Part shown: positions 1 through 24,300 of the stretch, piece by piece | How the letters are laid out: each line of letters begins with the position of its first letter | Numbering within the stretch: the first letter of the stretch is position 1 | IMG/VR virus record: IMGVR_UViG_3300004369_000121 | Coordinates: 1 to 26,698 of that record | Source: a virus | DNA: 26,698 nucleotides | Reading direction: 5' to 3' (one strand) | Program-made: the position numbers and the translations under genes | Notes under the pieces: generated by a model | Databases searched by the model: none | What the model saw: the letters and a program-made list of their open reading frames with translations, nothing else | What the model was told of the DNA's origin: nothing

Positions 1-135
1 CGCCAGTATGACCGGTACGATGCCCTCATCCCCCGCCTGGAATCGCAGTTCGGGCAGATGACCCCTGACGGTGCTCGCTGGATGGACCCTACCATTGACA
101 CCGACGCCCTGGATGAGATGCTGACCGATTTCTAA
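1..135 (+). CDS. C-terminal end of an unidentified protein (5' end outside window)
   Basis: Frame 1 is open from the first base and ends at TAA 133-135, giving 44 residues. The tail is acidic: it contains DTDALDEMLTDF at the very end and an earlier QMTPDGARWMDP stretch. The codons are strongly GC-ending (CTG, GCC, GAC, ACC), like the next gene and unlike everything after about 725. A G/C hairpin follows directly. I do not recognise the family, and too little is present to assign a function. The reading frame itself is supported by the GC-rich third positions and the clean stop before a hairpin. Confidence 0.6.
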   Translation, partial: RQYDRYDALIPRLESQFGQMTPDGARWMDPTIDTDALDEMLTDF

Positions 136-147
136 ACCGTCCACTTC

Positions 148-166
148 AGGGGGACCTGCTCCCCCT
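148..166 (+). terminator. G/C hairpin after the first partial gene, possible terminator
   Basis: AGGGGG (148-153) pairs perfectly with CCCCCT (161-166) across a 7-nt loop. It lies 13 nt after the stop at 135. Only two T residues follow, so it is not a canonical intrinsic terminator. It could instead be a transcript-stabilising 3' hairpin. Confidence 0.4.
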
Positions 167-202
167 TCCACCCTTATACTGATCTCAGTTCAGACAAAGC
201 AA

Positions 203-634
203 ATGACCGCTCTTACCGCTGACCAACTGACCGCCATGGAGTTCTACCAGGAGAACCTCCGTTACGTTGAGGGGTTTGGTCTGACCAACTTGGACCGCCC
301 CGAGCGTCTGCTTTTTAAGAAGGGTCGTCGCCTGGTAGAAGACGCCCTCGCCGCCGCTACCCGTACGAATAAGACCTATGTTCAGTGGACTGCTGAAGAG
401 CATGACGCCCTGGCAGCGTGCTATCTTCGGTTTGAGGGCAACCGTCCCGCTATCGTCGCCGCCTTTATGGCATTCAGTGCCCGCCATACTGCCGACGCCG
501 TAGATATCGCCGCTCAGTCCTGCAAGGCACTTGATACCCAGCACCCTGAAACCGTGGGTATGAGAGACCATGCCGACGGTCTGCTCAACGCTCTTAACGC
601 CCTCTCCCCTGGTCGCTTTAAGAGCACCCGCTGA
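203..634 (+). CDS. 143-aa GC-rich unknown protein, possible Myb/SANT-like helical motif
   Basis: This is an alanine-rich, probably all-helical soluble protein with no signal peptide or membrane segment. Residues 62-107 start W-T-A-E-E-H, continue with a GN-R-x-x-I-V-x-x-F segment and reach an R-H-T-A-D-A-V segment. That layout is reminiscent of Myb/SANT-type three-helix DNA-binding domains (W-[ST]-x-E-E ... GN..I...F ... R[ST]...V). The resemblance is weak and by eye only. GC content (57-63% in sampled lines) and GC-ending codons differ sharply from the AT-rich late genes downstream, suggesting a different history or an early-gene island. No strong Shine-Dalgarno precedes ATG 203; ATG 236 is an alternative start. 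The antisense frame over the same bases looks like a shadow. A C-rich/G-rich hairpin ends the unit. Confidence 0.7.
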   Translation: MTALTADQLTAMEFYQENLRYVEGFGLTNLDRPERLLFKKGRRLVEDALAAATRTNKTYVQWTAEEHDALAACYLRFEGNRPAIVAAFMAFSARHTADAVDIAAQSCKALDTQHPETVGMRDHADGLLNALNALSPGRFKSTR

Positions 635-640
635 GTTCGT

Positions 641-660
641 GGGGGGGCACCGTGCCCCCT
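641..660 (+). terminator. G/C hairpin after the 143-aa gene
   Basis: GGGGGCA (643-649) pairs with TGCCCCC (653-659) over a CCG loop, beginning 8 nt after the stop codon at 634. The tract that follows is TTATGTGTT, so the U-run is weak. It marks the end of the GC-rich unit. A second imperfect stem lies just downstream at 690-710 (CCGCCGC against GCGG-T-CGG). Confidence 0.5.
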
Positions 661-727
661 TATGTGTTCGTGATTTGGCAGTGCCCCCGCCGCCGCCCTT
701 GTGCGGTCGGGTCGCCCTTAACGCCCG

Positions 728-2927: not shown

Positions 2928-4802
2928 ATGCCTTTTACAAAATTTTCAAACCTAGATTTTGACCAAATAAAGACCTCTATTAAGAGTTATCTCCGTGCAA
3001 ACTCAGATTTCACGGATTTTGACTTTGAGGGGTCTAATTTTTCGGTTTTAATCGACACATTAGCGTACAATACTTACATTAATGCGTTTAACGCAAACAT
3101 GGTTGCCAATGAATCCTTCTTGGACTCGGCAACATTGCGCGAAAACGTCGTTTCTTTAGCAAGAAACATTGGATACGTACCTCGCTCTAGAAGCGCCTCT
3201 AAGGCGACTGTAAGTATTAGTGTATCTACAGCAGAAGATAAGAATACTGCGACCTTACAGGCGGGTCTAGTGTGTATAGGAGCGGTAAATGGCAGCAATT
3301 ACATATTTTCTATTCCAGAAAATGTCACAACTACATTAAAATTTGGAAATGGAACTTTTAGTGACATAATCGTCTATGAAGGAACATATCTTAAAAAGCA
3401 ATTTGTTGCTAATACATCAATAAATCAGCGTTTTATTCTTGATAATTCTTTCATTGACACTTCAACTATAGTTGTAAGAGTAAAAGGACCATCAGATAGT
3501 GGTGAAGGTAATGAATACACTAGAGTTGATAATATTCTGAAAATTGATAAAAACTCCAAAGTATACTTAATTCAAGAAGTTCAGGATGAGAAGTATGAAC
3601 TGTTGTTTGGAGATGGTTATTTTGGTAAAAAGTTGGAAAATGGCGCAATAATCACAGTATCATACATTACTACTAATGGTGAGGAAGGTAATGGTGCTAG
3701 TGAATTTGCTTTTGCGGGAAGAGTAATAGATGATAGCAATACTATAATTGAAAATGTATCAATTACAACTAAAACTAAATCTATAAATGGAGGAAATATT
3801 GAAAGTGTAGATTCGATTAAGTACTTTGCTCCTAGATTATATTCATCCCAATATCGTGCTGTAACTGCTCGTGATTATGAAGGAATTATTCAATCAATTT
3901 ATCCAAATACAGAGTCTGTATCTGTTGTTGGTGGCGAAGAGTTAGATCCACCACAGTTTGGTAATGTTATCATTAGCATTAAACCAAAGAATGGCAGTTA
4001 TATTTCGGATTTTGATAAACAAACATTACTTTCAAAACTGAAGAACTATTCTCTCTCAGGAATAAATCAGAAAATTGTAGATCTTAAGGTCTTATATGTT
4101 GAAATAGATTCTGCAGTTTATTATGACAACTCCAGAACATCCAGTGTTGCCGATCTTAAGAGCGCCGTAGTATCAGTCCTCAATAGTTTCGCAAAAGCAA
4201 ACATCAATCAGTTTGGAGGAAGGTTTAAGTATAGTAAGATATGCCAAACAATTGATAACTGCGATAATGCGATTACATCAAACATTACAAGAGTTATTAT
4301 TCGTAGAGATTTAAAAGTTCAAATTAATCAGTCTACACAGTATGAATTGTGTTTTGGTAATAAGTTTCGTGTCAATAGTGAAGGATTTAATATAAAGAGT
4401 ACAGGATTTACTCTTTCTGGCAGAACGGGAACATTCTATTTCACAGATGTTCCAAACAGTGATGGTACTACTGGTGTTATATCTGTCGTTAAAGATATTG
4501 GAAATTCTGGTAAATATGAGGTTGTACTCAAATCTGCAGGAACTGTTGATTATGTTAAGGGAGAGATAATTTTAGAAACTCTGAATATAACTTCAACTAC
4601 AGTAGACAATAATATTGTCGAAATTCAAGCATTCCCAGAATCAAATGATATTGTAGGATTAAAGGATTTGTATCTATCCTTTTCTGTTGCTGATAGTACC
4701 ATAAATATGGTTAAAGATACTATAACATCTGGCGAACAGATTTCTGGCGTTGGATACAAGGTTACTTCAAGCTACTTAAACGGAGAACTTAAGAGGGGAT
4801 AA
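2928..4802 (+). CDS. 6: Baseplate wedge subunit gp6 (baseplate J-like)
   Basis: At 624 aa it is close to T4 gp6 (660 aa). gp6 dimers form the inner ring linking wedges. The N-terminal ~85 residues are typical of the family: F-S-N-L-D-F-D-Q-I-K then LIDTLAYNTYINAFNANMVA, NESFLDSA and ARNIGYVPRS. The central T-A-R-D-Y-E-G-I-I segment (about 312-320) followed by a GGE..DPP.FG.V pattern is the standard baseplate-J/gp6 core signature. The C-terminal ~200 residues are beta-rich and less recognisable. It overlaps neither neighbour but is packed between gene 25 (3 nt) and gene 7 (1 nt). Its last codons, AAGAGGGGA, contain the Shine-Dalgarno for the next gene. Confidence 0.93.
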   Translation: MPFTKFSNLDFDQIKTSIKSYLRANSDFTDFDFEGSNFSVLIDTLAYNTYINAFNANMVANESFLDSATLRENVVSLARNIGYVPRSRSASKATVSISVSTAEDKNTATLQAGLVCIGAVNGSNYIFSIPENVTTTLKFGNGTFSDIIVYEGTYLKKQFVANTSINQRFILDNSFIDTSTIVVRVKGPSDSGEGNEYTRVDNILKIDKNSKVYLIQEVQDEKYELLFGDGYFGKKLENGAIITVSYITTNGEEGNGASEFAFAGRVIDDSNTIIENVSITTKTKSINGGNIESVDSIKYFAPRLYSSQYRAVTARDYEGIIQSIYPNTESVSVVGGEELDPPQFGNVIISIKPKNGSYISDFDKQTLLSKLKNYSLSGINQKIVDLKVLYVEIDSAVYYDNSRTSSVADLKSAVVSVLNSFAKANINQFGGRFKYSKICQTIDNCDNAITSNITRVIIRRDLKVQINQSTQYELCFGNKFRVNSEGFNIKSTGFTLSGRTGTFYFTDVPNSDGTTGVISVVKDIGNSGKYEVVLKSAGTVDYVKGEIILETLNITSTTVDNNIVEIQAFPESNDIVGLKDLYLSFSVADSTINMVKDTITSGEQISGVGYKVTSSYLNGELKRG

Positions 4803-4803
4803 A

Positions 4804-7800
4804 ATGATACAAACGGGCTTTGAGAAGAGGGTAAAAGTTCAACAAATAATCGAGAGTCAATTACCAGAATTCATACTTTCAGAAAGTCCAAAGGCAGTAG
4901 ATTTTCTAAAGCAGTATTATATTTCACAGGAATATCAGGGAGGAACTTTAGACCTTACTGATAACCTCGATCAATACTTAAAGTTAGATAATTTAACTCC
5001 CGATGTAATTTTTAGCAACACTACACTTTCCGTTGGCATTACAACCACATCGGAAGTGAGTACTATTGAAGTTTCAAGTACCAAGGGATTTCCACCAGAA
5101 TACGGATTATTTAAAATTGATGATGAAATTTTCACATATACTGGAGTAAGTGGAAATAGTTTTACTGGTTGTATTAGAGGATTTTCTGGAATAACTTCTT
5201 TCAGGACTGATCTAGACTCTGAAGAGATAATATTCAGTGAATCTAAGGCAGCAACACACTCTTCTGGTAACAAAGTAGAGAATTTAAGTGTAGGATTTTT
5301 AAAAGAGTTTTATAAAAAATTAAAGTATCAATTAACCCCGGGTCTTGAAGGTACTGGTTTTGTATCGGATTTGAATGTTAATAATTTTATAAAGGAAGCA
5401 AGAAGTTTATATGAGTCAAAAGGAACTGAAGAATCATTCAAAATTCTATTCAAGGTTCTTTATGGCGTAGATGTAAAGGTAGTTGATTTAGAAAATTATC
5501 TACTTAAACCATCCTCATCTAATTACAGAAGAAGAGAAGTTGTTATTGTTGAAGTTATTTCCGGAGAACCAAATAATTTGGTTGGTCAAACCATAACAAA
5601 ATCGTCAGATTCTAGAACTTCTGCATCAGTATCTGAGGTAGAAATTTTCAATAGACCTGGATTTGGAACATATTACAAACTAGGTTTGTTTATTGGATTT
5701 GATGATATAGATTTAATTGAAGGAACTTTTAATGTTCAAGCAGAAACTAAAGTAATTAATGAAGTATCCGTAGGATCCTCTGTAATTACAGTAGATTCGA
5801 CGGTAGGTTTTCCTGATTCTGGGACAATCATAAGTGGTGATAATATTATTACATATACATCGAAATCAGTAAATCAGTTTTTAGGATGTAGTGGTATTCA
5901 AAATATAATTGAGATAAAGGATAATATAAGAACTAATGAGTACTTCTTTGGATATGAAAATGGAGATATTTCTAAAGAGGTAAGAATTAGAATTACTGGA
6001 GTTTTATCAAAATTTACCCCTAAAGGAGTAGTTAGTTCTTTAGTGGAAGGTCAAAAAATATATGTCGATAATGTTGGAGAAAAAATCCTTAACCTTGGCA
6101 GAACAGAAAAAGAAATTTTAGCAAATAGTTGGATTTATAATACAAGTTCAAGATTTGATGTTGAGAGTCGTGATGACACTACTTTTGTATTAAAGGGTTC
6201 AGTTGATAAGTCTAGTTTAAGAGTTGGCGATTCTGTTGATATTCTTAATGGGACAACTAACACAGTTTTATACAGTGGAGCAATTGTATCTTCAATTGAC
6301 GGTAAAAATTTATCATTAGATAATTTAGTAGGATTTTTAGAAACACAAGAACTCACTTTAAGAAGAAATTTAAGAACTTCATCTAGCACTGGAGTACCAA
6401 TTTCTTTTGGTAATAATTCAATTATTTCTGACGTTCAAAATTTATATACAGATTCTGATTATGCGTATGTTGCGTCAAATTCTCTTCCATCTTCTGATAT
6501 AACTCAGAATACTATAAGTTCTACAATACCATCTCCAACAAAGGATAGTTATATATTAGGTTTTAATTCTACTACATTAAAGTATTCAATAATATCTTTT
6601 GATATTCCTGTAGATTTTATTACTGGAGATGAAATATATTACAGTTCTTCCAATCCTTTGATTGGTCTTCCAGAAGGTAATTATTTTGTAGAAGTTTTAT
6701 CAAACCCAAGACAAATAAAATTATATGGTTCAATATCATTAATCGATGTTGGGGTCAATCTAGAATTCTCTATTCCAGAAGTATCAGCATCACATACTTT
6801 CATATTATACACTCAAAAAGATAATTTTATTCAACCACAAAGATTACTTAAAAAGTTTCCATTAGTCCGAAATATTAAAAACGGAAATGATGTTTTAACA
6901 GAAGAATCATCAACGGTGGGAATGGCAGTTAATGGTGTTGAAATTGCAAGTTACAAGTCTTCGGATAAAATTTATTATGGTCCTATAGACAAAATAAACA
7001 TTTATAATGCAGGAAGAGATTATGATGTAATTAATCTGCCAGTAATTGAAGTTTCTTCACCTCCAGTTGGATATACTACCGCTTTAATTACTGCAGTAGT
7101 TAGTGGTACATTAAAGGAAGTTCAGGTAGATCCACAAGACTTTGATTTGTATAATGTTCTTTCAGTATCTATTTCTGGTGGCAATGGTGATGGTGCTATT
7201 TTAAAACCCGTTTTAGAAACTAGAAATCGTGAAATTGAATTCAGTGCTAGATTAACTTCGGATGGTGGAGGTCTTAATACCACTGATGATACCATCACAT
7301 TTAAAAAACCACACTACTTGACTAGTGGTGATGCAATCATTTATGATAGAAATAATAATAATCCTATTGGCGTAGGAACTTTTGGTGGAAGTAATGAATA
7401 TCAAAATTTGGATTTAAGTTCTGGTTCTGTATACTATGCTGAAGTTGTCGATACAACAAAAATAAAACTGTATGATTCTCTCTCAAATTATAATAGTGGA
7501 ATTAATACAGTAGGATTCACAACAACATCTCAGGGTATTCATAAGTTTAAATTATATAATACTAAGAAGACACTCAAAGAAATTAAAGTTATAAGTCCTG
7601 GATCAGGATATGAAAACAGAAAGTTAAAAGTAAAATCCGAAAACATTAATCCTGTAGATGATACTATAACATTTGAAAATCATGGTTTTAGTCATGGTGA
7701 TATTATCGCATATACTACCGATGGTTCTTTAGTCGGTGGATTATCAACATCAGTAAGATATAAAATTATAAAAATATCTGATAATAAATTTAAACTCGCA

Positions 7801-10800
7801 AATGTTGGTGTTGGCGCTACAGATGATACAAATTATCTGAAGAACATTGTCGTAGATATTACTAGTTCTGGTTCTGGGTATCAAAATTTCGCATATCCAG
7901 ATATAGAATTAACTATTAACGCTCAATACGATGGAGTATCGGGAATCATAACAGCAACTCCTGTTGTTAGAGGAGAAATTGTAGATTTATATCTCTATGA
8001 AAAAGGTACAGGGTATGGATCAAACATTCTCAATTTCCAAAAGAAACCACAGTTAACTGTAAAAACTGGTAAAGGAGCAGAATTACTTCCAGTAATTTCA
8101 AATGGTGAAATAGTATCAGTTTACATAGAAACTCCAGGATCTGAATATTTCTCCACCCCAGATTTGGAAGTTGTTGGGGATGGTAATGGTGCAAAATTGA
8201 GAGCGATTACTTCTGGTGGAAAAATTACTAATATTGTTGTATTAAATCCTGGATATGGTTATACTTCGACCAAAACTTTTATTCGTATTCTTTCTGCAGG
8301 TAAAGGTTTAAATTCAAAGATAGATTTGAGGGCTCTTACATTAAACAATCATTACCGTTTCGGAGATGAGATAATTTTAAATAATAATGATAGTTTGGAA
8401 TATGCATTAGTTGGTTATTCTACCTCCAAAGGATCGTCGGAGTTTGGAGATACTGGAAACAATCATTCTCCAATTATTGGATGGGCATATGATGGTAATC
8501 CAATATATGGTGGTTATGGATATACGGATCCTTCAGATTCAGATTCAAACATTAAATTATTGACCAGTGGTTACACATTATCAGCAAGTAATGTTGTCGA
8601 TAGACCATCTGTTTCACTGTTCCCATTAGGTTATTTTGTTGAAGATTATAAGTTTACAAGTTCTTCATCGGATTTAGATGAACATAATGGTAGATATGCA
8701 AAAACTCCCGAATACCCTAATGGTGTTTATGCTTATCATACTTCTCTTAGTTCTAACGGGAAGACCTCAATATTTCCATATTTTATAGGTAATACATATC
8801 GTTCTTTACCAATAGAACAAGATTTGGATCAAAGTTATGATTTTAACAGTTCGAGTTTGATTAGGAATACATTCCCATACCGTGTCAATGAAAAATATTC
8901 AAACAATGATTTTATTGTAGAACCATATGAATATTTGGTTCAGAGTGGAGTTGTGGATTCTGTTACAAAGGGATCTGTAGAAGGTTTTATTATTAATGAT
9001 TCTGGCAGCAATTACCAAATCGGTGATTCTTTAGTTTTTGATAATACTGGTACTAATGGATATGGAATTTCTGCAGAGGTAAAATCTTTAGAAGGAAAGA
9101 CAATTACCGATGTAACAACTACAACTATATCATATGATCCATCTATTTTGATTAGGGATAATCAAAATCAAGTTTCTGTCCATATTTCACCATCTCACGA
9201 ATTTTCAAATAATGATTACATAGCAATATCTGGTCTATCTACTTTTATTTCCGGCATCACAAAAGTTCATAAAATTGGTGTTAGTACCGAATCAACAAGA
9301 TTACTTACGGAAGTTTCAGCAAATTCAACAGTTGGTGTTGTAACTGATATCTTTGTTGTAAATATCCCTCCTAGTGTCTCTGCGGGAACCACTGTTGCTA
9401 TCGGAACAGAGAGAATGTCTGTTCTTAACACTTATCCTCAGAACAGGGTTATAAGGGTTGTTAGAGGGGTTACAGGTACTGCTCATACGGAGAATACCCA
9501 GGTAGATGTATCCCCTGGAAGTTTTACTTTACCAATAAACACAAAATATTTCGAATCTTATTTAAATGATAAGATTTATTTCAACCCAACACAATCTATT
9601 GGTATTGGAACGACTCCTGGTAACTTTGTTAACAATAGTTACTTTATAGGAGACAGGAGTAGAGATCTATCCGTGGAGACACAGAATGTTTACCTCCCCA
9701 ATCATCCATTTAAAACTGGACAACAAGTAACCTTAGAAATACCACCTTCATCTAATACAATCTCTGTTTCTTCCACAGAGACTAGTACATCATTCAATAT
9801 TCCTCAAAGTGGAACTACCGAAACATTATTTGTAATCAAAAAGTCTGATGATTTTATTGGACTTTGTACACAAGTTGGATTGACGACAAACACAAAAGGT
9901 CTATTCTTTATATCATTTACAGAAAATGTAGATTATTTTACAAATTACAAGTATTCTTTAACTTCAAACAAGACTCAAATAACTGCTAAAGCACAAAGAA
10001 TAACATCTAGAGTATCGGTATCAACTGCTCATGGTCTTTTGGAAAAAGATCAGATTAATTTGACTGTAGTTCCTAACCAATCTGTTGGTATTGGAACTTC
10101 AACATCAGTATTTGTAAAATATAATTCATCATTTGATAAGTTGTTGCTAAATCCAGTTGGTTTTACTTCAGACAGTGTAAATGCTTCATCAAATACATTG
10201 ACCATAGCAGATCATGGATTTGTAACTGGCGAAAAAGTATTTTACGATTCTTCAGATGATTTAATATCTGGATTGTCAACTGGTCCATACTATGTCTACC
10301 GTATAGATGATAATACAATAAACTTAACACCTTCTTACTATGATGCAGTATCTTCCCCACCATCCATAGTTAGTTTTGGTTCTACTGGAGGATCTGAGCA
10401 GGAGTTGTCATTAGTTAATCCAAAATTACACCCAACCAAGGGTAATAATTTAGTTTTTGATGTTTCTGATTCTTCTTTGAATGGATATTCCTTAGATTTT
10501 TACTATGATAAAGGATTTAAAAATAATTTTACTTCAATAGGTTCTTCAACATCATTCAATGTTTCTGGTTTTGGTACAGTTGGTGTTACAACAAATGCAA
10601 CAGTAACTTTAAATTATCAAAATAATTTACCAGAAAAAATTTATTATCAAATTTCTAAATCTGGTTTTATCAGCACTTCTGATACAGAAGTTAAAGATTA
10701 CTCTATAATTTCTTTTGTTGATAGCGTTTATAATGGATCATACAATATTATTGGTATAGGAACAACTACATTTGATATTTCTCTAGGAAAAAATCCAGAA

Positions 10801-13800
10801 AATAATAATTATACACAATCTTCTACAGGTACTTTAAAGTATTCCACCCAATCATTAACTGCAAGTGGTGGTGTTAATTCTATAAATCTGCTATTTGGTG
10901 GTATAAACTATGAGAGACTTCCTGAGTTTTTATCCATAACTTCTACTAATGGAGAAAGTGCTGATATTATTACAACATCAAGCACTATTGGTAATCTTAA
11001 TAAATTAACTATTAATGATCCTGGTTTTGATTTTTCTGCCGATAAAACATTAAGTCCAGAAGCATATATTTCTCCAAATATTGTTTTAAATAACAGAGAT
11101 TATATTTCCAGTGTTGATGTAACTTTTGGAGGTTCTGGATATTCTTCAACACCAGATTTGGTAATAGTTAATCCAAATACTGGCACTGAATATAATACAG
11201 GTCTTTTGTTGGCAAAAATTCAAGGAACCGCTATTACATCTGTAGAGATTATTGAATCTCCAAAAGGCATTTCCGAAGTTAAATCTGAAATTTATGCAAT
11301 TAATAATAGTAATGGTATTTCTATTACTAATTGTGATACTTCTTCATCAGGAATTGTAACCTGCACATTAAGTACACCAATTGTTGGTTTTACTACTAGT
11401 CCGTTTGTTGAGGGTGATCTTATTTTTGTTGAAGGAATACAACAGTATTCAACGACAGGGACTGGATTTAATTCAAAAGACTACTCTTACAATTTCTTCA
11501 AAGTAACGGAATATGTAAATTCTAATCCAGCAGTAGTTAAATTTGACATATCACCATATGCTACTAATCCAGGTATAGCTAAAACCATCCAAGGAGGGTT
11601 TGCTACAATTATAAACAAAAAAGTATATCCAACGTTTAACGTAATACAAAAACCAAAACAATTTTCAATTGGCGAAAATATACTTATAAAATTAAATAAT
11701 TCTTATACCAAAGTAGATCTTAAGATTACTCATACTCTGAACGACTCCATAAAAGTTTATGGTTCTTACGATTTGGTAGTTGGTCAGGTAATATATGGAC
11801 AAGATTCTGGATCAGAAGCGACAATTAAATCAATTACAGAAAGTAATGGTACTTTTACAATTGATTATAGTTTAGTCACAGATTTTGGGTGGTCTGATGA
11901 TGTAGGAAAACTGAACAAGGATTATCAAGTTATTCAAGATAATGATTATTATCAGAATCTTTCATATTCAATCAATAGTCCTATAGAATATGATGATTGG
12001 GTTGACCCTGTTAATAGTGTTCTTCACTCCACTGGTCTCAAGAATTTTGCAGACACTAGCATAATATCAAAAGCAACAGTTTCTACTGCACAAACAGGAT
12101 CCTCAAACTCAATTGCAATTTTCGATCTTCTCTCCGAAAATAGAGTGGATACAATTAATATTTTTGACTTTGCTTCAGATGTTAATGTTCTCTCGGGAAA
12201 ATCAAAATTTGTTGCATTACAAAACAAAAAATTAAGTGATTATATTGAATGTAAAACAAATAGAGTCTTAACAATTGACAATTTTAATAATCTGTTTGTT
12301 AATAGTGAGGATGTAAATTCTACTTTGTATAGAGATTTTGAAATTGTATACCCTGGTCAGGGTTATATGAATTATTTGGTACAAATTATAAATCCGAATA
12401 ACACAGATATACAGACAACAGAAATTGTATTATTAGATACTAATTTAGATAATATTGTAATAGGGCAAAAATCATCTTTACATTCTACAGATAATCCCAT
12501 TGCAGATTTACAAATATATAAAGATACTGTAGGAACTCATTATCTCAGATTTGTACCTGTAGATCCATATGATTCCGATTTTGATATCAAGTTTATAAAA
12601 TCTGACTTTAATACTACTGCTTCTGGAGTTGGTACACAATCTATAGGATTTGTTGATTTGGTGGGAATCAACACAACTATTGGTGTTGGTTCAACAGGTG
12701 TAATATATCAGAAGTCTAAAGATACTTTTGAATATTTGATTGCCGAAGTTGAATTATTCAACGAAGTTACAAAAAATAAAACAGTTGTTGATTTGTTTAT
12801 AGACCATGACGATACCGATGTTTATAGATCGGAGTTGTTCTTTGATGGATTTGATTCGACACAATTCTCTTCCAACTTTATTGGAACATTTACTTCAGAT
12901 ATTGATTCTGGAACTGATTTATTCTCTCTTAAATTTGAGAATAACACCGAATTAAATACTGTACGCCTTAGATCTTCAATTGTTGGATTTGGAACAACTA
13001 CGGTAGGAATAGGTACTTATATATTTAAAGCAAGCGGACAACCAGAATCTAGTGTTAGGGCGGCTAGACTGGAGTCTAATTATTCGATATTACCTGGTTC
13101 CGGTATTTCTACAGTTTTAACATATGCCGAATCTGATGTTAGTAGTGTAAAATCTATAGTAAGAGTTTCATACGGTAATACTTCTGCTGTTGGTAAGGTT
13201 TTATTTAATCACAATGGAACTAATACTTATATAACACAATATCCATACTTAAACATCAAGGATAATCTTGGCATTGGTACTTTTGGAGCAGAAATTGATG
13301 GAAGTGATTTTAATTTGATCTTCTATCCAGATTCTGGAATCTCTGATGATATTACAATTCAGTCTTTCAGTCAAATTATACAGACCACCAGTGATTCGGT
13401 TAATACGCCACAAGAATTAACATATGGTAGTGTTAGTAAGAATTTAAATATAACCGAATTTAACTCAGTCAATGGGGACAGAACCAATAGAACAGACTTT
13501 GATTTAAATCATAATAGATATCCAATTTTTGAGAAAACATTTGACCCATCAGTGTCAGTTGTAAACGAAACTGGATTATTTAAAATAGATAATCATTTCT
13601 TCAAGACTGGTGAGCAGTTAATTTATACTCCAAGATCATCATTTATTGGATCTTCATCAACTTCAATGGTGATGTCTGATACGAATATTCTCCCAACGGA
13701 TGTTTATGCTATTAGAATTAATGTAAATGAATTTAAACTTGCAACCAGTTTATTAAATGCAAACGCTGGAATAGCAGTAACATTTAATTCTGCAGGAAGT

Positions 13801-16704
13801 GGAAATGCTCATACTTTAGAAATGAGTAAAAAGATGGAAAAATCATTGATTATTCTTGATGGAATTGCAAGAGCACCTTTAGCATTTACAGAAATTAATC
13901 ACCAGTTGTCTTACAATGAAGGTGGTTCTATCTCAGCAGCATCAACATTCTTTACTGTATCTGGCATCTCTTCTATTTCTAGAGGAAATGTTCTTAAAAT
14001 TGATGATGAATATGTACAAGTTGTATCGGTTGGTTTGGGAACAACAACTGTAGGTCCTATAACGGGAATTGGAACTTACAATGTAATAGAATCTAAAAGA
14101 GCATTTGTTGGTTCTTCTGCTACCACTCACAATAATGGAGCGACTGTTAGACTTTATGGAGGTTCTTATAATATAGCCAGAAACAAAATTCATTTCACAG
14201 AGGCACCAAGAGGAAATGCTTTTGAAATAGTGGATAATTCAAATCTTTCTCCTAATAAATCTGTATTCAGTGGTAGAGTTTATTTGAGAAATGATTACTC
14301 TAATAACAGAATTTTTGATGACATTTCATCACAATTTACTGGAATTGGTGCCACATATAGACTGACTGTTGAGGGTAGTGATGTTACTGGAATTGAAACA
14401 GGAAGCGCTATGTTATTCCTCAATAATATCTTCCAAGAACCAATAACATCAAATAATTCTATCGGAAATTACAATTTTATTGAAAATTCAGGAATAAGCA
14501 GCGTTGTTTTCTCTGGCAATAGTGATGATAGTCTTTCTGATTATGATGTAAATCAAAACGTATTGCCGAGAGGTGGTTTGATTGTTTCTCTTGGATCTAC
14601 TCAAGGTCTCGGTTTCGCTCCTCTGGTTGGTGCTTCGGTAACATCAGTTGTTTCTGGTGGCGTCATCCAAAATAGCATTGGTATTGGAACCACAGACAAT
14701 GTTGGTTCTGGATATTATGGCGGCACTGTTTCAATTGGTGTTACTGATCCAAATCAGACACCAGGAAGCACTGAAGCAACAATTATTGCTACTGTAGGCG
14801 CTGGTGGATCACTATCATTTAACGTTACTAACGGTGGTTCTGGATATACAAATACAGCAGTAATTCAAATACCCGATCCATCGTATAGCAACCTTCAAAT
14901 CGAAGGAGTTTCACGTATTGGTATTGGTTCTACTACTGATACTGGAAGCAATTTACTTCTCAGTGTGGAAGTTGGAGCAGCAAATACTAATGTTGGGATA
15001 GGATCAACATTGTTTGAAGTTAAAAACTTCAAGATAACAAGACCTGGATGGGGATTTAGAAAGGGTGACAAGTTTAAACCAGTTGGTTTAGTTACAGCGA
15101 AAGACCTTACAGAACCAGTTAATAATTTTGAATTAGAAGTTCTTGATGTTTTCAATGATTCATTCTCCTCTATACAACTTGGTCAGTTTGATTATATTGA
15201 TTCAATAACTAGTCTTCAAGATGGTTTTAGGAAGAGATTTCCTTTAAAATACCAAGGCGAACTTGTAAGTTTTGAGATTGATAAAGATAATCCAGATTCC
15301 GCAGAGATAGATCTAGAATCTGTTCTTTTAGTTTATATCAATGGCGTTCTTCAAAATCCAGGAGAAACTTATAAATTTGTAGGCGGAACATCTATTCTTT
15401 TTGTTGAAGCTCCACGCGGACCACAACCTCTTGATCCTAAACAACAAGTTGGTGATAATATAGAAATATTCTTCTACAGAGGCACAAGAGGAGTTGATAG
15501 CATATTGATTGATAATATATCAGAAACAATTAAACCTGGTGATAAAATACAGTTATATCCAACTGATAATATAGTTGGACAAAATGAAAGAACTGTGTTT
15601 AATATTTACGGTTCTGATGAATTAGAAACTGATCCATATACTGGTATTGGTGTCTCTGAGAGTCAGTTCAGACCTGTGAGTTGGACAAAACAAAAAGTTG
15701 ATCTTGTTGTTGGTGGACAAATTGTATATAAAACAAGAGACTCTATAGAAGCACAAGTTTATCCGACAGCAAAAATTATTGGTGATTTCAGTTCAACAGA
15801 TACAAACATTTTTATTGATGATGCAAGATTCTTCAACTATGAAGGTCTTATTGGAGAAAATACAACTGACTTGTTCATAGTTAATACACCAATAAATTCA
15901 GTAGCAGCTGCTATAACAGCAACAGTTTCTGCTGCTGGAACTATTTCAGGATTTACTATTAGTGATGGTGGTTCTGGATATACAGGTTCTTCTGCAGACA
16001 TAAAGATTTCTGCTCCTTCATATATTAAAGTGGGTGTTGGTACAACCGCTACAGCAACAGCAACTGTAACAAACGGTTCTATTACCTCAGTATCAATCAC
16101 CAATCCTGGTCTTGGATATACTAACACCACACCCCCACAAGTTATAACTGCACTTCCAGAAGTGTCTTATGAAAATGTATTGAATGTAACTGGTATTGGT
16201 GGAACTACAGGAACTATAACAGGAATTGGAACTACAGTTGGTACTGGAAGTCACTCTTTGGCACTTAAATTCACTCTGAATATTATTGATACTGGAGAAA
16301 CTTTTGAGGATATTACAGGTTATCCAATATACATTTTCAATACTAGTATTGGATCTGGTGTTACTTCAGTCAATAGTTCTGATAGTGCAACCGTTGGAGT
16401 AGGAACTACTTTCTTAGATAATATCTACATTGCAAGTGCGTTTAGTTCCAACAACAATGTAGGAATTGTAACCTGCAATATTCTTTCAACAACCAATGTT
16501 GTTGGGTTAGAGACATCGGGAAGTGCTACAAATCCACAAGGATTATTCTCTTGGGGTAAACTTTCTGGATTTACTAGATCGTTATCACCTATCTCCATTG
16601 GTGTTACAGGTCTTACAATTGATTCTGGTTTATCGACATTCCCAACTGTCCAAAGAAGAGGATTTGGATTAAGATCTAACGGTTCTTTGAGAAAGGGTCT
16701 TTGA
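4804..16704 (+). CDS. 7: Giant 3966-aa gp7-like baseplate wedge protein with repeat modules and YHYH-type domain
   Basis: Residues ~1-300 match the C-terminal part of T4 gp7 (T4 protein 1032 aa). LPEFILSESPKAVDFLKQYY aligns with the T4 segment around LLQDSNFEAF. YESKGTEESFKILFKVLY (203-220) aligns with YSTKGIEASYKFLFKVLY of T4. LVGQTI (259-264) is identical. gp7 wraps the wedge together with gp6 and gp53. The T4 N-terminal ~600 residues have no counterpart ahead of this domain. The remaining ~3600 residues are Ser/Thr/Gly/Asn-rich beta sequence built from recurring modules: pGsGY turns (Tyr at 936, 1026, 1071, 1115, 1153, 1404, 2113, 2521, 3348, 3726, 3772); H-G-[FL]..G[DE] units (e.g. 828-895, 952-1004, 1797-1844); RG-type units (80-133, 320-366, 1502-1570, 3040-3119); NGV.Q.P units (3015, 3203, 3508); and GIGTT motifs. 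A YHYH-like domain lies at ~1220-1334. The C-terminus (SWGKLSGFTRS ... STFPTVQRRG) is a phrase I know from cyanophage structural proteins. Uninterrupted frame and even codon use argue for one polypeptide. Confidence 0.88.
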   Translation: MIQTGFEKRVKVQQIIESQLPEFILSESPKAVDFLKQYYISQEYQGGTLDLTDNLDQYLKLDNLTPDVIFSNTTLSVGITTTSEVSTIEVSSTKGFPPEYGLFKIDDEIFTYTGVSGNSFTGCIRGFSGITSFRTDLDSEEIIFSESKAATHSSGNKVENLSVGFLKEFYKKLKYQLTPGLEGTGFVSDLNVNNFIKEARSLYESKGTEESFKILFKVLYGVDVKVVDLENYLLKPSSSNYRRREVVIVEVISGEPNNLVGQTITKSSDSRTSASVSEVEIFNRPGFGTYYKLGLFIGFDDIDLIEGTFNVQAETKVINEVSVGSSVITVDSTVGFPDSGTIISGDNIITYTSKSVNQFLGCSGIQNIIEIKDNIRTNEYFFGYENGDISKEVRIRITGVLSKFTPKGVVSSLVEGQKIYVDNVGEKILNLGRTEKEILANSWIYNTSSRFDVESRDDTTFVLKGSVDKSSLRVGDSVDILNGTTNTVLYSGAIVSSIDGKNLSLDNLVGFLETQELTLRRNLRTSSSTGVPISFGNNSIISDVQNLYTDSDYAYVASNSLPSSDITQNTISSTIPSPTKDSYILGFNSTTLKYSIISFDIPVDFITGDEIYYSSSNPLIGLPEGNYFVEVLSNPRQIKLYGSISLIDVGVNLEFSIPEVSASHTFILYTQKDNFIQPQRLLKKFPLVRNIKNGNDVLTEESSTVGMAVNGVEIASYKSSDKIYYGPIDKINIYNAGRDYDVINLPVIEVSSPPVGYTTALITAVVSGTLKEVQVDPQDFDLYNVLSVSISGGNGDGAILKPVLETRNREIEFSARLTSDGGGLNTTDDTITFKKPHYLTSGDAIIYDRNNNNPIGVGTFGGSNEYQNLDLSSGSVYYAEVVDTTKIKLYDSLSNYNSGINTVGFTTTSQGIHKFKLYNTKKTLKEIKVISPGSGYENRKLKVKSENINPVDDTITFENHGFSHGDIIAYTTDGSLVGGLSTSVRYKIIKISDNKFKLANVGVGATDDTNYLKNIVVDITSSGSGYQNFAYPDIELTINAQYDGVSGIITATPVVRGEIVDLYLYEKGTGYGSNILNFQKKPQLTVKTGKGAELLPVISNGEIVSVYIETPGSEYFSTPDLEVVGDGNGAKLRAITSGGKITNIVVLNPGYGYTSTKTFIRILSAGKGLNSKIDLRALTLNNHYRFGDEIILNNNDSLEYALVGYSTSKGSSEFGDTGNNHSPIIGWAYDGNPIYGGYGYTDPSDSDSNIKLLTSGYTLSASNVVDRPSVSLFPLGYFVEDYKFTSSSSDLDEHNGRYAKTPEYPNGVYAYHTSLSSNGKTSIFPYFIGNTYRSLPIEQDLDQSYDFNSSSLIRNTFPYRVNEKYSNNDFIVEPYEYLVQSGVVDSVTKGSVEGFIINDSGSNYQIGDSLVFDNTGTNGYGISAEVKSLEGKTITDVTTTTISYDPSILIRDNQNQVSVHISPSHEFSNNDYIAISGLSTFISGITKVHKIGVSTESTRLLTEVSANSTVGVVTDIFVVNIPPSVSAGTTVAIGTERMSVLNTYPQNRVIRVVRGVTGTAHTENTQVDVSPGSFTLPINTKYFESYLNDKIYFNPTQSIGIGTTPGNFVNNSYFIGDRSRDLSVETQNVYLPNHPFKTGQQVTLEIPPSSNTISVSSTETSTSFNIPQSGTTETLFVIKKSDDFIGLCTQVGLTTNTKGLFFISFTENVDYFTNYKYSLTSNKTQITAKAQRITSRVSVSTAHGLLEKDQINLTVVPNQSVGIGTSTSVFVKYNSSFDKLLLNPVGFTSDSVNASSNTLTIADHGFVTGEKVFYDSSDDLISGLSTGPYYVYRIDDNTINLTPSYYDAVSSPPSIVSFGSTGGSEQELSLVNPKLHPTKGNNLVFDVSDSSLNGYSLDFYYDKGFKNNFTSIGSSTSFNVSGFGTVGVTTNATVTLNYQNNLPEKIYYQISKSGFISTSDTEVKDYSIISFVDSVYNGSYNIIGIGTTTFDISLGKNPENNNYTQSSTGTLKYSTQSLTASGGVNSINLLFGGINYERLPEFLSITSTNGESADIITTSSTIGNLNKLTINDPGFDFSADKTLSPEAYISPNIVLNNRDYISSVDVTFGGSGYSSTPDLVIVNPNTGTEYNTGLLLAKIQGTAITSVEIIESPKGISEVKSEIYAINNSNGISITNCDTSSSGIVTCTLSTPIVGFTTSPFVEGDLIFVEGIQQYSTTGTGFNSKDYSYNFFKVTEYVNSNPAVVKFDISPYATNPGIAKTIQGGFATIINKKVYPTFNVIQKPKQFSIGENILIKLNNSYTKVDLKITHTLNDSIKVYGSYDLVVGQVIYGQDSGSEATIKSITESNGTFTIDYSLVTDFGWSDDVGKLNKDYQVIQDNDYYQNLSYSINSPIEYDDWVDPVNSVLHSTGLKNFADTSIISKATVSTAQTGSSNSIAIFDLLSENRVDTINIFDFASDVNVLSGKSKFVALQNKKLSDYIECKTNRVLTIDNFNNLFVNSEDVNSTLYRDFEIVYPGQGYMNYLVQIINPNNTDIQTTEIVLLDTNLDNIVIGQKSSLHSTDNPIADLQIYKDTVGTHYLRFVPVDPYDSDFDIKFIKSDFNTTASGVGTQSIGFVDLVGINTTIGVGSTGVIYQKSKDTFEYLIAEVELFNEVTKNKTVVDLFIDHDDTDVYRSELFFDGFDSTQFSSNFIGTFTSDIDSGTDLFSLKFENNTELNTVRLRSSIVGFGTTTVGIGTYIFKASGQPESSVRAARLESNYSILPGSGISTVLTYAESDVSSVKSIVRVSYGNTSAVGKVLFNHNGTNTYITQYPYLNIKDNLGIGTFGAEIDGSDFNLIFYPDSGISDDITIQSFSQIIQTTSDSVNTPQELTYGSVSKNLNITEFNSVNGDRTNRTDFDLNHNRYPIFEKTFDPSVSVVNETGLFKIDNHFFKTGEQLIYTPRSSFIGSSSTSMVMSDTNILPTDVYAIRINVNEFKLATSLLNANAGIAVTFNSAGSGNAHTLEMSKKMEKSLIILDGIARAPLAFTEINHQLSYNEGGSISAASTFFTVSGISSISRGNVLKIDDEYVQVVSVGLGTTTVGPITGIGTYNVIESKRAFVGSSATTHNNGATVRLYGGSYNIARNKIHFTEAPRGNAFEIVDNSNLSPNKSVFSGRVYLRNDYSNNRIFDDISSQFTGIGATYRLTVEGSDVTGIETGSAMLFLNNIFQEPITSNNSIGNYNFIENSGISSVVFSGNSDDSLSDYDVNQNVLPRGGLIVSLGSTQGLGFAPLVGASVTSVVSGGVIQNSIGIGTTDNVGSGYYGGTVSIGVTDPNQTPGSTEATIIATVGAGGSLSFNVTNGGSGYTNTAVIQIPDPSYSNLQIEGVSRIGIGSTTDTGSNLLLSVEVGAANTNVGIGSTLFEVKNFKITRPGWGFRKGDKFKPVGLVTAKDLTEPVNNFELEVLDVFNDSFSSIQLGQFDYIDSITSLQDGFRKRFPLKYQGELVSFEIDKDNPDSAEIDLESVLLVYINGVLQNPGETYKFVGGTSILFVEAPRGPQPLDPKQQVGDNIEIFFYRGTRGVDSILIDNISETIKPGDKIQLYPTDNIVGQNERTVFNIYGSDELETDPYTGIGVSESQFRPVSWTKQKVDLVVGGQIVYKTRDSIEAQVYPTAKIIGDFSSTDTNIFIDDARFFNYEGLIGENTTDLFIVNTPINSVAAAITATVSAAGTISGFTISDGGSGYTGSSADIKISAPSYIKVGVGTTATATATVTNGSITSVSITNPGLGYTNTTPPQVITALPEVSYENVLNVTGIGGTTGTITGIGTTVGTGSHSLALKFTLNIIDTGETFEDITGYPIYIFNTSIGSGVTSVNSSDSATVGVGTTFLDNIYIASAFSSNNNVGIVTCNILSTTNVVGLETSGSATNPQGLFSWGKLSGFTRSLSPISIGVTGLTIDSGLSTFPTVQRRGFGLRSNGSLRKGL
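5041..5202 (+). repeat. RG-type module copy 1 (protein repeat in gene 7)
   Basis: This encodes residues 80-133. The pattern is S-T-I-E-V-S-S-T-K-G-F-P...G-L-F-K-I-D-D-E-I-F-T-Y-T...F-T-G-C-I-R-G-F-S-G. The same order (V-x-V-x-S-T-x-G-F, G, I-D-D-E, Y-T, G-C-x-R-G) recurs elsewhere in gene 7 and once in the 2380-aa protein. Similarity is at protein level; DNA copies are diverged. Confidence 0.65.
5761..5901 (+). repeat. RG-type module copy 2 (protein repeat in gene 7)
   Basis: This encodes residues 320-366. S-S-V-I-T-V-D-S-T-V-G-F-P-D-S-G is followed by G-D-N-I-I-T-Y-T and F-L-G-C-S-G. It lacks the R of the RG and is the shortest copy. Confidence 0.6.
8461..8805 (+). other. YHYH-type domain inside gene 7
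   Basis: This encodes residues 1220-1334. NHSPIIGWAYDGNPIYG is followed by HNGRYAKTPEYPNG and VYAYHTS (Y1309-A-Y-H1312), then F-P-Y-F-I-G-N-T-Y-R-S. This is the order of blocks in the YHYH domain family: HSPI.G.A.DG.PIYG, then DxNGR, then YHYH with a downstream P-Y-F/G. The motif here reads YAYH, with one histidine replaced. Histidines 1221, 1294 and 1312 could form a metal site. Function of the family is not established. Confidence 0.75.
9307..9513 (+). repeat. RG-type module copy 3 (protein repeat in gene 7)
   Basis: This encodes residues ~1502-1570, with S-A-G-T-T-V-A-I-G-T-E-R-M as the ligand-like strand and VIRVVRGVTGTAHTENTQV as the RG tail. Its DNA is more GC-rich than the gene around it (29/60, 25/60 and 25/60 GC in lines 9361, 9421 and 9481). 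Confidence 0.6.
13921..14160 (+). repeat. RG-type module copy 4 (protein repeat in gene 7)
   Basis: This encodes residues 3040-3119. The order is S-T-F-F-T-V-S-G...R-G-N-V-L-K-I-D-D-E-Y-V-Q-V, then a GLGTTTV/GIGTY insertion, then V-I-E-S-K-R-A-F-V-G-S-S-A-T-T-H-N-N-G-A-T-V. Confidence 0.55.
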
Positions 16705-18309: not shown

Positions 18310-21300
18310 ATGCCACAGAAAACGAACCTCAATATAAATCCTTATTATGATGATTTTGATAAGGATGATAATTTCTATAAGGTTTTATTTAAACCAGGAT
18401 ATCCTATCCAGGCAAGAGAATTAACAACACTACAATCTATCTTACAAAATCAGATAGAGACGTTTGGTAGTCATATGTTTAAAGAGGGATCTATGGTTAT
18501 TCCTGGAGGAATAACCTATGATTCTGACTATGATTCTGTAAAGATAAATTCTACTCATTTGGGTATAGATGTTAACATTTATGCCGATAAACTGGTAGGA
18601 AAAAAACTTAGAGGTCAAACATCTGGTGTAGTGGCGACAGTTGACAAGTGGTTAGATATTTCAGAATCGGCAGGAATTACTCACTTAACGTTATTTGTAA
18701 AATATATTAATGCAAATAATAATAATGAGGCAGAATCATTTGATGATGGTGAAGTTCTTATAGTAGAAGAAAATTTTACCTATGGTAATACAACAGTTAA
18801 TTCTGGAGAGTCTGTTGCATCTTTAATTGACGAAAACGCAACAGCACTTGGAACGGCTGTCGGCGTTACGGAAGGAGTATTTTTTGTTAGAGGAACATTT
18901 GTATACGTTCCCACAGAAAAACTTGTCTTAGATGCTTATAGTAATAGTTCATCTTACAGAGTTGGATTCACAGTACTAGAAGAACTGGTTACAGCAAAAG
19001 ATGATGATTCTCTGTATGATAATGCGAAAGGATATTCAAATTACGCTGCCCCAGGTGGAGATAGATTAAAAATTTCATTGGTGTTGTCCAAAAAATCTTT
19101 GACAGATTTTAATGATACATCTTTTGTAGAAATTGTAAGGGTTCAAGGTGGTGATGTAAAGAAAATACAAAATAAGTCTGATTATAATTTGATACGAGAC
19201 TATTTTGCAAAAAGAACTTATGAAGAGTCTGGCGATTATGCCGTAGATACATTTTTTGTTGAAGTATCAGATTGTTTAGATGATGGAATATCTACAGAGG
19301 GATCATTTACAAGCAATCAAATTACCGATCAAGGAAATGTTCCTTCGGAAGATCTTTTATCTGTTAAAGTATCGCCCGGAAGGGCATATGTAAAAGGTTT
19401 TGACGTAGATTTACAATCTACAACTATTATTGATGTAGAAAAACCAAGGGATAAAAGGGAAGTTTCTTCTGCACTGGTTCCTTTTAATTTTGGAACTCTG
19501 TTAAGAGTTAATAATGTTCAAGGAACTCCTATTTTAGGGATTAATAACAACCTTACCGTAAAATTATATGACCAAAGAAGAGGTTCTGCTACAGACGCAG
19601 CAACTGGAAATGAAATAGGACAAGCAAGAGTTTATTCTTTTGGATTATCCGATGCTCCATATTCAAACGCTTCTTCGTCTTGGAATCTGTATTTGTTTGA
19701 CGTACAGACTTATACATTTTTAACTCTGAATTCAACAGTAACTACTGCCCAAGTGCCCGCTAGTTCTTATATTAGAGGTTTAAGTAGTGGAGCATCTGGA
19801 TATGTCACAACGGCTCCTGCAGGATCCGATACCATAGAATTGACACAAACTTCTGGTACTTTCGTTGAAGGAGAACAGATACTTATTAATGAAACGACTG
19901 AATTATCCAGATCTATTAACTCTATAAGAGTTTGTGGAATTGAAGATGTAAAATCAATCTATCAAGATACTAGTGCCGAAACTGGGTATGTAGTTGATTT
20001 TATTGCAGATACAGTCCTTCAAAAGAGACTAGCACCAAACTTTAGTATTAATGATACCATTAGCATTAGTTCTAATACCGTTACATCTCCCGGAAAGATT
20101 TTTACTGGTATTAAAACAGAATCTATTATTAGATATCAGATATCTGGAACTAGTGAAGAAACTTTCAACAGAGTAACCGCAGTTAGTGCTGATGGCACTA
20201 ATTTAACTGTTGCTTCAGTTGAAAGTATTAGTAGTGTTTGTAATGGTACTGTAGGTGTTGTTACATCTGTACCATTCTCTATTGGTGTCCCCCTAGTTCC
20301 ACAAAGTGGTGGTCTTTATTCTCCAATTGGAGAAAGAAATATTGCATCGGTAAATCTTTCGGGTTCCAACATCATAGTATCAAGTCAAATCACCGAACAG
20401 GAGACCAATGCTCTTGGAGAGATGACAATAAATGTCACTGCTACTGGTATTAGTAGTGCATTCTTTGAAGCTTTTGATGCCGAAAGGTATAGTATATTTT
20501 ATCAAAATGGAGATGTTGAAGATCTTTCATCAGATCAAGTTACATTTGGTTCAAATGGTCAATCAATAACATTTAGTGGGTTGACACCCTCTCAGCAAGA
20601 TCCTAATTATGTTACAGTTAATACTACTGTTAGAAAAAACTCTATTACAAGTAAGTCTAAAATTTACACTAGAAGTGAAAAATTAACAATAGATAAATCA
20701 ATATCTGGAGTTTCCACTCAAATTAGTGGTCTTACACAAGGATCTTATTATGGAACAAGAGTTGAAGATAAAGAGATATGTCTAAACTTCCCAGATGTTT
20801 CCGAAGTTATAGCAGTTTATGAATCATATAATGATTCAGCACCAACATTAGATTCTATTGAATTTCCATCAGGTCTGTCTTTAGATACATCTTCTATTCT
20901 TGGTGAAAGAATTGTAGGATCTGATAATGGAGCCGTTGCTCAAATTGTAACTAGATCTTCTGCAACTAAGGTTGAAATTGTATATTTAAATTCCAAAGTA
21001 TTTAAAGTAGGTGAGTTAGTAAAATTTGAAGAGTCCAATATAGAATCATTAATTACTACCGTAAATAGTGGTAATTATCAAAATGTAAGAAGTCAATATG
21101 TCTTGAATAAAGCAACAAGAGAACAATATTATGATTATTCTAGACTTGTAAAAGTTAACAGAAATTATACCCCTTCACATCAACTTTTAGTTATATTTAA
21201 TCGTTATTCTGTCCCATCTAATGATAATGGAAATGTTTATACTGTAAATTCATATTCTGCAGATAGATTTAAAAATAATATTCCTTCAATGGTTGGAGGA

Positions 21301-24300
21301 TTAAGAGCATCAGATACTCTTGACTTTAGACCAAGAGTTGCCGAGTTTACATCAACAACATCTTCTCCTTTTGACTTTGCAAGTAGAAATTTTGCTACCG
21401 CTGGTGTTAATCCAACTTTAGTTGTCACTCCTGGCGAAAGTTCTCTCATAGGATATGATTATTATCTCCCAAGAATCGATAAAGTAGTATTAGATAAAGA
21501 GGGAGATTTAATAGTCATAAAAGGTTCTTCATCCCCAAATCCACAAGAACCATCAAACTATAAAGATGCTATGGAGATTGCAACAATATCTCTTCCAGGA
21601 TATCTTTATAATCCAGAGAATGCAATTGTCTCTTTAGTTGACAATAGAAGATATACAATGAGAGACATTGGTGCAATTGAAGATAGACTTGAGAATTTAG
21701 AAGTTGCAACTTCGTTAACACTTTTAGAACTCGATACTCAATCACTTCAAATTAGGGATCCTGATGGTTTAGATAGATTTAAATCTGGATTCTTTGTAGA
21801 TGATTTTAAAGATTCTCTTAGATCGGACGTGCTCCAGTCAACTGCACTAATTGATGAAGATAGAAATGAGTTAACTACACTGGTTGAATTAAATACAATA
21901 CCTTTACAATTAGCTTTAGATCCATCAATAAACGAAGACTCTGCCGATAATATAGACAATATTCTTTTAGACCCTAATGTCCAAAAAACTGGAAATTTGG
22001 TAACGTTGAAATATGAAAAAACTACCTTACTTGAACAACCATATGCAACTAGAGTTGAGAATGTAAATCCATTCCACGTTGTTGAATACACTGGTAATAT
22101 ACAAATAGTTCCAACAAATGATACATGGGTTAGAACTATTAATATTAATGGTGGAACAAGACTTATAGGACCCGCCCAAGATATTGTTAATACCATTAGT
22201 CTTCCGTTTGGCACTCGTCGAGGGGGCGGTCGCCAGGAGATACAAACAAGAGAAATTCAGGTTGTAACTCCAACACGGACAGTATCAGACACTATACAAG
22301 TATCTGTACAATCCAGTGCAGAACAATTTATTCGTTCTAGAAATGTATTTTTTAAAGGAACTAGTTTAAGACCTTATACTAGACATTATCCTTTCTTTGA
22401 TAGTTCTTCGAATTTAGATATTATTCCAAAATTACTAGAAATTAGTATGATTTCTGGAGTATTTGAACCTGGCGAAGTTGTAAGAGGTTTTGATGAAGGT
22501 AGAAATATATTTACTTGTAGAGTTGCTAGACCAGATCATAAAGAAGGTCCAAGAGCAAACCCATCTAAAAAATATAGTTTAAATCCATATAATAATCAAA
22601 CAAGTTTACCAACATCATATTCTGCATCTTCTTCTGTTCTAAATTTGGACATTGTAGATTTGCAAACAGAAGTACTTGGTAGGTTTAATGGTTATGTAAC
22701 TACGGGTATGATTCTTGTTGGAGAAACTAGCGGAGCCCAAGCTTCAGTATCTGATATTAGACTAGTTGCGGATAGGGTAGGGGATATTTACGGATCTATG
22801 TTCTTCAGAGATCCATTAACATCTCCTCCACCACCAAGAAGATTTACAACTGGAGCAAAAACTTTTAGATTGACATCAAGTTCTACAAATATACAACCTC
22901 TGCGTGGAAGTAAATTGATCAGTAGTGCTGATGGAACTTACACAGCTACGGGAAGAGTTGATAGAATTACAAGAACTCGTGTAATAGTGAGGGAGGTCCA
23001 AAGAGTAGATCCTTTAGCACAAACATTTACAGTTGATGAAAATGGTGCATTTTTAACTGATGTTGAATTGTTCTTTGCAAATAAAGATGAAGTAGAAAAT
23101 CTACACATAGAAATTAGAACAGTTGAACTTGGTATACCAACAAGAACTCTTGTTTCGGAGTATGCAACTGTAGAGGTTGATCCTAGTGAAATTGAAACAT
23201 CTAGAGATGCTTCTATTGGGACAACAATAACTTTCCCATCTCCAATTTATTTGGAATCTGATACTGAATATGCCTTAGTAATATTGTCACCAAATTCAGT
23301 TAATTATGAACTTTGGGTATCAAGAATGGGAGAAAGGACTGTTACTGTAGCAAACCTACCAGATGCTGAAAGTATTATTGCCACACAGGCATATACTGGT
23401 GGTAGTCTTTACAAATCACAAAATGGAACAGTTTGGACTGCAAGTCAAGAAGAAGATTTGAAATTTAAGTTAACTAAAGCATCCTTTGTTTCGGGCGGAA
23501 CTGCGTATTTCTATAACTATCCTTTAATAGCAGAAAATTTAGAAAACAGATTGCCCAATGATTCAATTAGAACTCTACCAAGAAAATTAAAAGTTGGAGT
23601 TGATTCAAATACTTTGCAGACAAGTATTTTGACAATTGGTAGGAAGGTTGCCGATGGAACTTTATCTTCTTCTGCTTCTGGATTTATTGAGGGTGTTGGT
23701 GGTGGAGCTGCAAATGCAACAACCAACTTAGTTGGTGTTGGATATAGTAATGGTACTTTTACTGGGGTTCCTCTATATTCAATCACAGGATCTGGAACTG
23801 GAGCACAAGGTACTGTTACATTTTCTGCAGGTAAAGTATCGGGAAATCCATCTATAACCGCATCAGGATCTGGATATTCTGAAGGTGACATTCTTGGAAT
23901 TACAACTGCCAATGTATCAAAAGGAACTGGTGCTCAAATTACAGTCTCTAGTGTCACCAATGTAGATACACTATATTTGACTAATGTTCAAGGTGAAGAA
24001 TTTACTACAGGTCAAGATTTAGTTTATTATGAAGGGTCTACAGCAGTTTCTATGGCAAGTACCCATGTTACAAGTTCAAGTCTAATTAGTGACCTCTTTG
24101 ACGGAAGAGTTATTGAAGTTAATCATTTAAATCATGGAATGCATTCGGATACTAATATTGTTTCTATTACTGGAATTGAACCAAACACAATACCAGCATC
24201 ATTAACACAACCTATCGGTATTAATACAAATATAATTTCTGTTGCAGATACTACAAGATTCTCCACCTTTGAAGGTATTAGCACATCTCAAGGTTATTTG

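Follow-up and report, generated by a model that had tools for sequence, protein, structure and literature searches.

A recurrent GC step upstream of gp25 in T4-like cyanophages, probably marking the right-hand end of a hyperplastic small-gene array

Why should the base composition of a phage genome fall within a few bases, between one small gene and the next? The question is raised by a 26,698-base record from an uncultured virus, which was analysed over its whole length and is called the window here. The window is a fragment of a T4-like cyanophage carrying gp25 and gp6; a DNA similarity search matched 225 phage records, and the best among the matches listed included S-SRM01, S-SKS1 and P-SSM2. 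Under a single-breakpoint model, the maximum-likelihood GC breakpoint was base 727 (plausible range 716–750, within 4 likelihood-ratio units; likelihood ratio 198), with 59.7% GC to the left versus 33.8% to the right. GC over positions 1–725 was 0.596, a value reached in 0 of 100,000 block permutations, and the next highest 725-bp stretch in the window had 0.411. Codon usage switched at the same place: GC3 was 0.63–0.76 left of the step (GC1/2/3 of 0.65/0.47/0.63 in the ORF of a 143-aa protein) and 0.16–0.37 in the right-hand genes. These measurements bear out a preliminary description of this DNA, which had reported a sharp boundary in GC and codon usage at about 725. Its remark that late genes often fall to 20–35% GC is true of GC3 and of short stretches but not of 500-bp GC, which is 28–41% once the step itself has been passed.

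Promoter-early stem-loop (PeSL) cassettes are reportedly found in hyperplastic regions of T4-like phages (Arbiol 2010 and Comeau 2014, as cited in PMC4503421). One PeSL-like unit is present in the window, whose features around the step are as follows:

1–135, + strand: 3' end of the ORF of an array gene, 44 codons visible, 5' end outside the window; GC3 0.76
136–202, + strand: intergenic PeSL-like unit; stem-loop 148–166, then TATACT 175–180, then ATG 203
203–634, + strand: gene for the 143-aa protein; GC3 0.63; predicted all-helical
638–664, + strand: GC hairpin 3' of the 143-aa gene; dG −22.3 kcal/mol, z −4.1, 0 of 200 shuffles equally stable
665–727, + strand: GC-rich non-coding stretch reaching the step; fold not unusual (z −0.65)
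728–763, + strand: boundary element, a late-promoter-like dual box; TATATAAAA 728–736, CATGGGTCCC, CTATAAA 755–761
797–827, + strand: two more boxes, TTATAAAA and TATATAAAAC, the last stopping 4 bp short of the 65-aa ORF
832–1029, + strand: 65-aa protein, phrog_661; opens the AT-rich side
1078–1836, + strand: 252-aa protein, phrog_1574; weak glycosyltransferase match
2494–2501, + strand: late promoter TATAAATA of the canonical cyanomyovirus type, 21 bp upstream of gp25
2523–2924, + strand: baseplate wedge gp25, start of the structural module
2928–4802, + strand: baseplate wedge gp6, following gp25 at the start of the structural module

The switch had been placed after a hairpin and before AT-rich repeats, and this order was confirmed by the hairpin at 638–664 and the boxes that begin at 728; TATAAAAC occurs at 730, 798 and 820. 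The hairpin has no T-run immediately 3' of its stem and is a possible end of the early transcript. The stem-loop at 148–166 (AGGGGGA-CCTGC-TCCCCCT) has a 7-bp stem, a dG of −12.3 kcal/mol and a modest z of −1.5. A scan for PeSL-like units had a hit here at 175, and relatives share the layout of the unit together with a TATAnTGAnTTCAGTTC-type leader. On the right, gp25, gp6 and the canonical late promoter together identify a late module of a T4-like cyanophage. The structural module also contains two very long ORFs, at 4804–16704 (3966 aa) and 18310–25452 (2380 aa). The 65-aa protein (phrog_661) matched MazE/AbrB-type proteins only very weakly, short of the cut-off (E 0.036), and its homologue in S-SRM01 is annotated as DNA-binding. 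The protein could be a regulator located at the boundary.

The step is shared by other phages. The 143-aa protein led to 17 relatives; in 16 of them, as in the window, a TATATAAAA-type box begins at the step, and the sequence of the 17th (L006) stops before the step position. The breakpoint lay 13–15 bases before ATGGGTCCC in the 15 loci having ATGGGTCCC; in L016 and L017, the TATATAAAA-type box is present and ATGGGTCCC absent. Several of the 17 are near-identical (L007–L010, L014/L015 and L016/L017) and therefore represent fewer independent lineages, and their agreement to a single base is partly by construction, because the breakpoint finder is attracted to AT-runs. Because a left-side gene had selected this sample, we drew a second one through the 252-aa gene on the right side, taking its best 80 relatives with near-duplicates kept, of which 48 were scorable and 32 had less than 1300 bp upstream. 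Of the 48 scorable loci, 38 showed a GC drop of at least 15 points and 42 one of at least 10, leaving 10 without a 15-point step. Across all 48, a TATAWA box was found at the break in 40, the second boundary box in 43 and both boxes in 36, at near-fixed spacing.

For seven cultured cyanophages, we also took the 1-kb GC peak of the 10 kb preceding gp25 and ranked it genome-wide. This peak came first in S-CAM7, S-SRM01 and ACG-2014f and fell within the top 0.4–1.6% of 1-kb windows in S-T4, S-SKS1 and P-SSM2; in Sf-CH8 it was weak and unremarkable (7.5%). Among the other GC peaks looked up, some were gp23, tail-fibre or collagen-repeat genes, and one was annotated as hypothetical only. Tail-fibre and capsid genes, considered as a cause of GC peaks, thus account for most of the other peaks looked up but not for the peak upstream of gp25.

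The GC drop near 727 is real and recurrent in these phages, and it is no oddity of one contig. Independent contigs carry the same junction, element and downstream genes, and cultured isolates have a comparable GC peak at the same place, upstream of gp25, which makes misassembly very unlikely. We give next to no credence to an assembly chimera of two genomes joined at about 727, and for the lineage such a chimera is refuted. A junction common to so many contigs is neither an assembly error nor recent. The preliminary description had proposed that DNA from a GC-rich host or phage was recently inserted, and this reading is not supported on either of two counts. A recent insertion should be absent from close relatives, and the step was present in the window, in 16 of the 17 relatives and in 38 of the 48 loci. 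Nor was a recognisable donor found for the 143-aa family, the one family searched, which is diverged (40–43% identity to the window protein) and missing from 400 host-family genomes. GC-rich genes may nonetheless have been imported earlier, or may still be arriving.

Relatives of the 143-aa protein came from 17 IMG/VR loci (38–47% identity) and from S-CAM7 (40%), and in the relatives measured the family has a GC of 0.59–0.62 despite its sequence divergence. A search of Synechococcus genomes, suggested earlier as a check on its origin, detected the family in 0 of 400 Synechococcus-family genomes, and none was found in genome_contigs; as a control, the same query was detected in 4 of 10 phage records. 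The protein had no match in PHROG or Pfam at E ≤ 0.001 and none in NCBIfam at E ≤ 0.1, only weak Myb-like matches, and a best PDB sequence match at E 0.64. Its predicted structure gave no match at E ≤ 0.001 in a PDB fold search. Compared with L019:12001–12423, the protein (203–634) looks mosaic, its N-terminal half resembling the IMG/VR relatives and its C-terminal end S-CAM7.

The feature extends beyond 1–725: relatives show a longer array, of which these bases form just the final portion. Left of the step, the relatives carry a run of small ORFs, called by a script according to length so that wrong frames may be included. The same gene families of the array turn up from relative to relative, some being gained or lost and their order partly conserved, and the gene next to the boundary varies by locus, being a member of the 143-aa family or of others. 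Gaps in the array often contain a GC stem-loop followed by a -10-like box, a short leader and ATG. Scanning seven loci, we found 10 PeSL-like units in 23.6 kb left of the step versus 0.6 expected, and 0 in 49 kb right of it versus 0.8 expected, expected counts here and for S-CAM7 being derived by first-order Markov resampling rather than exact shuffles. Stem-loops joined to a sigma70-like promoter are thus found above chance in small-gene gaps, as in PeSL cassettes. Among the isolates, only S-CAM7 has such units at high density: the 10 kb preceding gp25 contains 9 versus 0.1 expected; the same 10 kb holds none in S-SKS1 and S-T4 and one or two in each of four others. Consecutive gaps in S-CAM7 carry an almost identical TACAATTGATTCATACCAAA leader, and their stems differ in sequence and still fold. 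Most stem-loops in the array units are without a T-run, and a terminator role therefore stays putative. As an alternative to recent insertion, the preliminary description had offered a distinct early-gene island. The island is supported in substance, since relatives have small ORFs arrayed with stem-loops and sigma70-like -10 boxes, an arrangement absent to the right; the early timing of the island is predicted. No known RNA families were found in seven sources, and tRNA clusters, considered as a cause, were found in none of 12 loci.

According to PMC2984593, cyanomyoviruses have a gp55 homologue and late promoters of consensus NATAAATA. The boundary boxes, TATAAAAC and CTATAAAG, share the TATAAA core of this promoter, which stands in canonical form before gp25 in the window. 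Unlike that promoter, the boundary boxes end in AC, AA or AG rather than TA, and they are paired at near-fixed spacing. Their class is uncertain, because they are variants rather than the consensus; the dual box may function like a gp55-type late promoter. As TATAAAAM occurs 8 times in the whole window versus 8.2 expected by chance, the case for the boxes lies in their clustering and conservation, not in their number.

Leftwards of the boundary, composition follows a gradient. In 14 of the 48 loci, mean GC rose over 3.5 kb, from 43% to 64%, before dropping to 35%. Because these loci were picked for a long flank and a clear step, omitting long-flank loci with a small step (such as L265, L285, L269, L222 and L287), the profile describes the shape where a step exists. 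In 19 loci picked in the same way (20 less one near-duplicate), all site classes rose toward the boundary: GC2 from 0.34 to 0.48, fourfold sites from 0.41 to 0.65 and intergenic GC from 0.46 to 0.62, with GC1 rising likewise. Codon usage in 13 hand-picked array ORFs of relatives correlated with that of WH7803, which may not be the host, at r 0.88 for ribosomal genes and 0.80 for other genes, versus −0.17 for the late genes of the window. For S-CAM7 (12 of 15 CDS in range), the corresponding values were 0.80, 0.77 and 0.08. A preference of the array for ribosomal over ordinary host codons is not secure, the bootstrap fraction above zero being 0.96 with WH7803 and 0.62 with WH5701.

We consider it likely that 1–727 is the right-hand end of a hyperplastic small-gene array in a T4-like cyanophage, with early genes to the left and late genes to the right, an assignment of the two sides that is predicted from their sequence elements. 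Early on, the host sigma70 RNA polymerase would transcribe each left gene from a stem-loop/-10 unit of its own, and the stem-loops would end or insulate the array transcripts. The phage late (gp55-type) machinery would start at the dual box and continue through the 65-aa gene into the structural module. The left side would consist of exchangeable genes suited to the host translation pool and the right side of an AT-rich, vertically inherited module, so that composition would differ between the sides because their gene populations differ. A related reading, which we regard as unlikely, is that a compositional sawtooth is maintained by host-codon selection on the array genes nearest the boundary, late genes being freed from it after the translation pool has changed. 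Because each array promoter would add read-through to the next gene, the genes nearest the late boundary would be the most expressed before takeover. Two observations are compatible with such selection: the fall lies at the dual box, and the GC slope within gene families is largest at third positions (0.033 per kb versus 0.007 at positions 1 and 2).

Other processes could produce a step or a gradient. GC-rich cyanobacterial or phage genes might keep entering the site and drift towards AT, the step being the end of the entry zone. Such continued import would fit the host-like composition across all site classes, intergenic DNA included, and the variable gene content. It would also fit the lean of recent left-side changes towards AT (82 S→W versus 45 W→S in three trios), a lean as extreme in 0.062 of stationary simulations and so short of significance at the 5% level, although parsimony on such composition is itself biased towards S→W. 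We nevertheless find import somewhat doubtful: the 143-aa family, the sole array family searched, is absent from the 400 host-family genomes and from genome_contigs, and it is diverged yet has kept its high GC in the relatives measured. A regional mutational process or GC-biased gene conversion, strongest at the boundary, could instead make the gradient, as suggested by the rise of GC1, GC2, fourfold and intergenic GC towards it and by a within-family slope of 0.016 per kb (r 0.29, n = 213; 44 loci after near-duplicate removal, from 38 of the 48 plus 10 others). The overall slope in that sample, however, was 0.052 per kb and thus mostly between families; the DUF6267 family stays at a GC of about 0.44 even 0.6 kb from the boundary; and the left-side equilibrium GC estimated from recent changes was 0.40 pooled, which is not raised (trio parsimony, biased towards S→W). 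These three results disfavour regional mutation bias, and a fall within a few bases would be hard for it to produce; we judge such a process distinctly unlikely.

A replication origin at the change in skew is very improbable. GC skew does turn from negative to positive at the step, and the detrended cumulative-skew minimum lies 1.8–3.3 kb upstream of gp25 in S-CAM7, S-T4 and two fragments, but it is not there in the other five of the seven isolates, and codon bias alone can produce the change.

The early/late array that we favour resembles PeSL cassettes in three ways: between small genes of unknown function, its stem-loops immediately precede a sigma70-like -10 box; consecutive gaps of S-CAM7 hold near-identical copies; and its genes turn over. 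It differs from them in being GC-rich and ending at a compositional step, in the scarcity of T-runs after its stem-loops and in that its activities are predicted. Like the 'ORFanage' of S-PM2 (PMC4503421), it is a cyanomyovirus block of small unknown genes and a hotspot of gene exchange. That paper describes few PeSL-like signals in the 'ORFanage' and judges PeSL-type shuffling unlikely there, and the descriptions in its Results and Discussion mention no GC step, unlike the array described here. The g15–g18 hyperplastic region of cyanomyoviruses (Millard 2009, cited in PMC2984593) is described as carrying host-like metabolic genes; its variable genes, like those here, are flanked by structural genes, but the present array lies elsewhere in the genome, upstream of gp25–gp6. 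We found no prior statement of a GC step or of dense PeSLs in cyanophages in searches of open-licence papers.

The interest of the locus lies in the tie among a composition step, a promoter type and gene turnover. If the favoured early/late reading is true, the step and a short element mark the border between early and late blocks in uncultured cyanophages and delimit a region where small host-takeover proteins can be sought, and PeSL-type gene shuffling becomes directly testable in the isolate S-CAM7. If selection also maintains a sawtooth, the early-to-late switch of uncultured cyanophages could be read from the GC step.

Within the array, copies of a DUF6267 protein (about 300 aa; L012:1009–1920 and L002:1298–2206) appear repeatedly, with a GC of about 0.44 amid GC-rich neighbours. 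At L007:1255–2728, three gaps hold near-identical stem-loops built around GGTTCTCAATA...TATTGAGAATC, which form a second kind of repeated intergenic unit, farther from the boundary. The leader TATAMTGAYTTCAGTTC was found in at least 120 IMG/VR stretches, up to four times per stretch among those listed (for example, the viral contigs L306 and L374).
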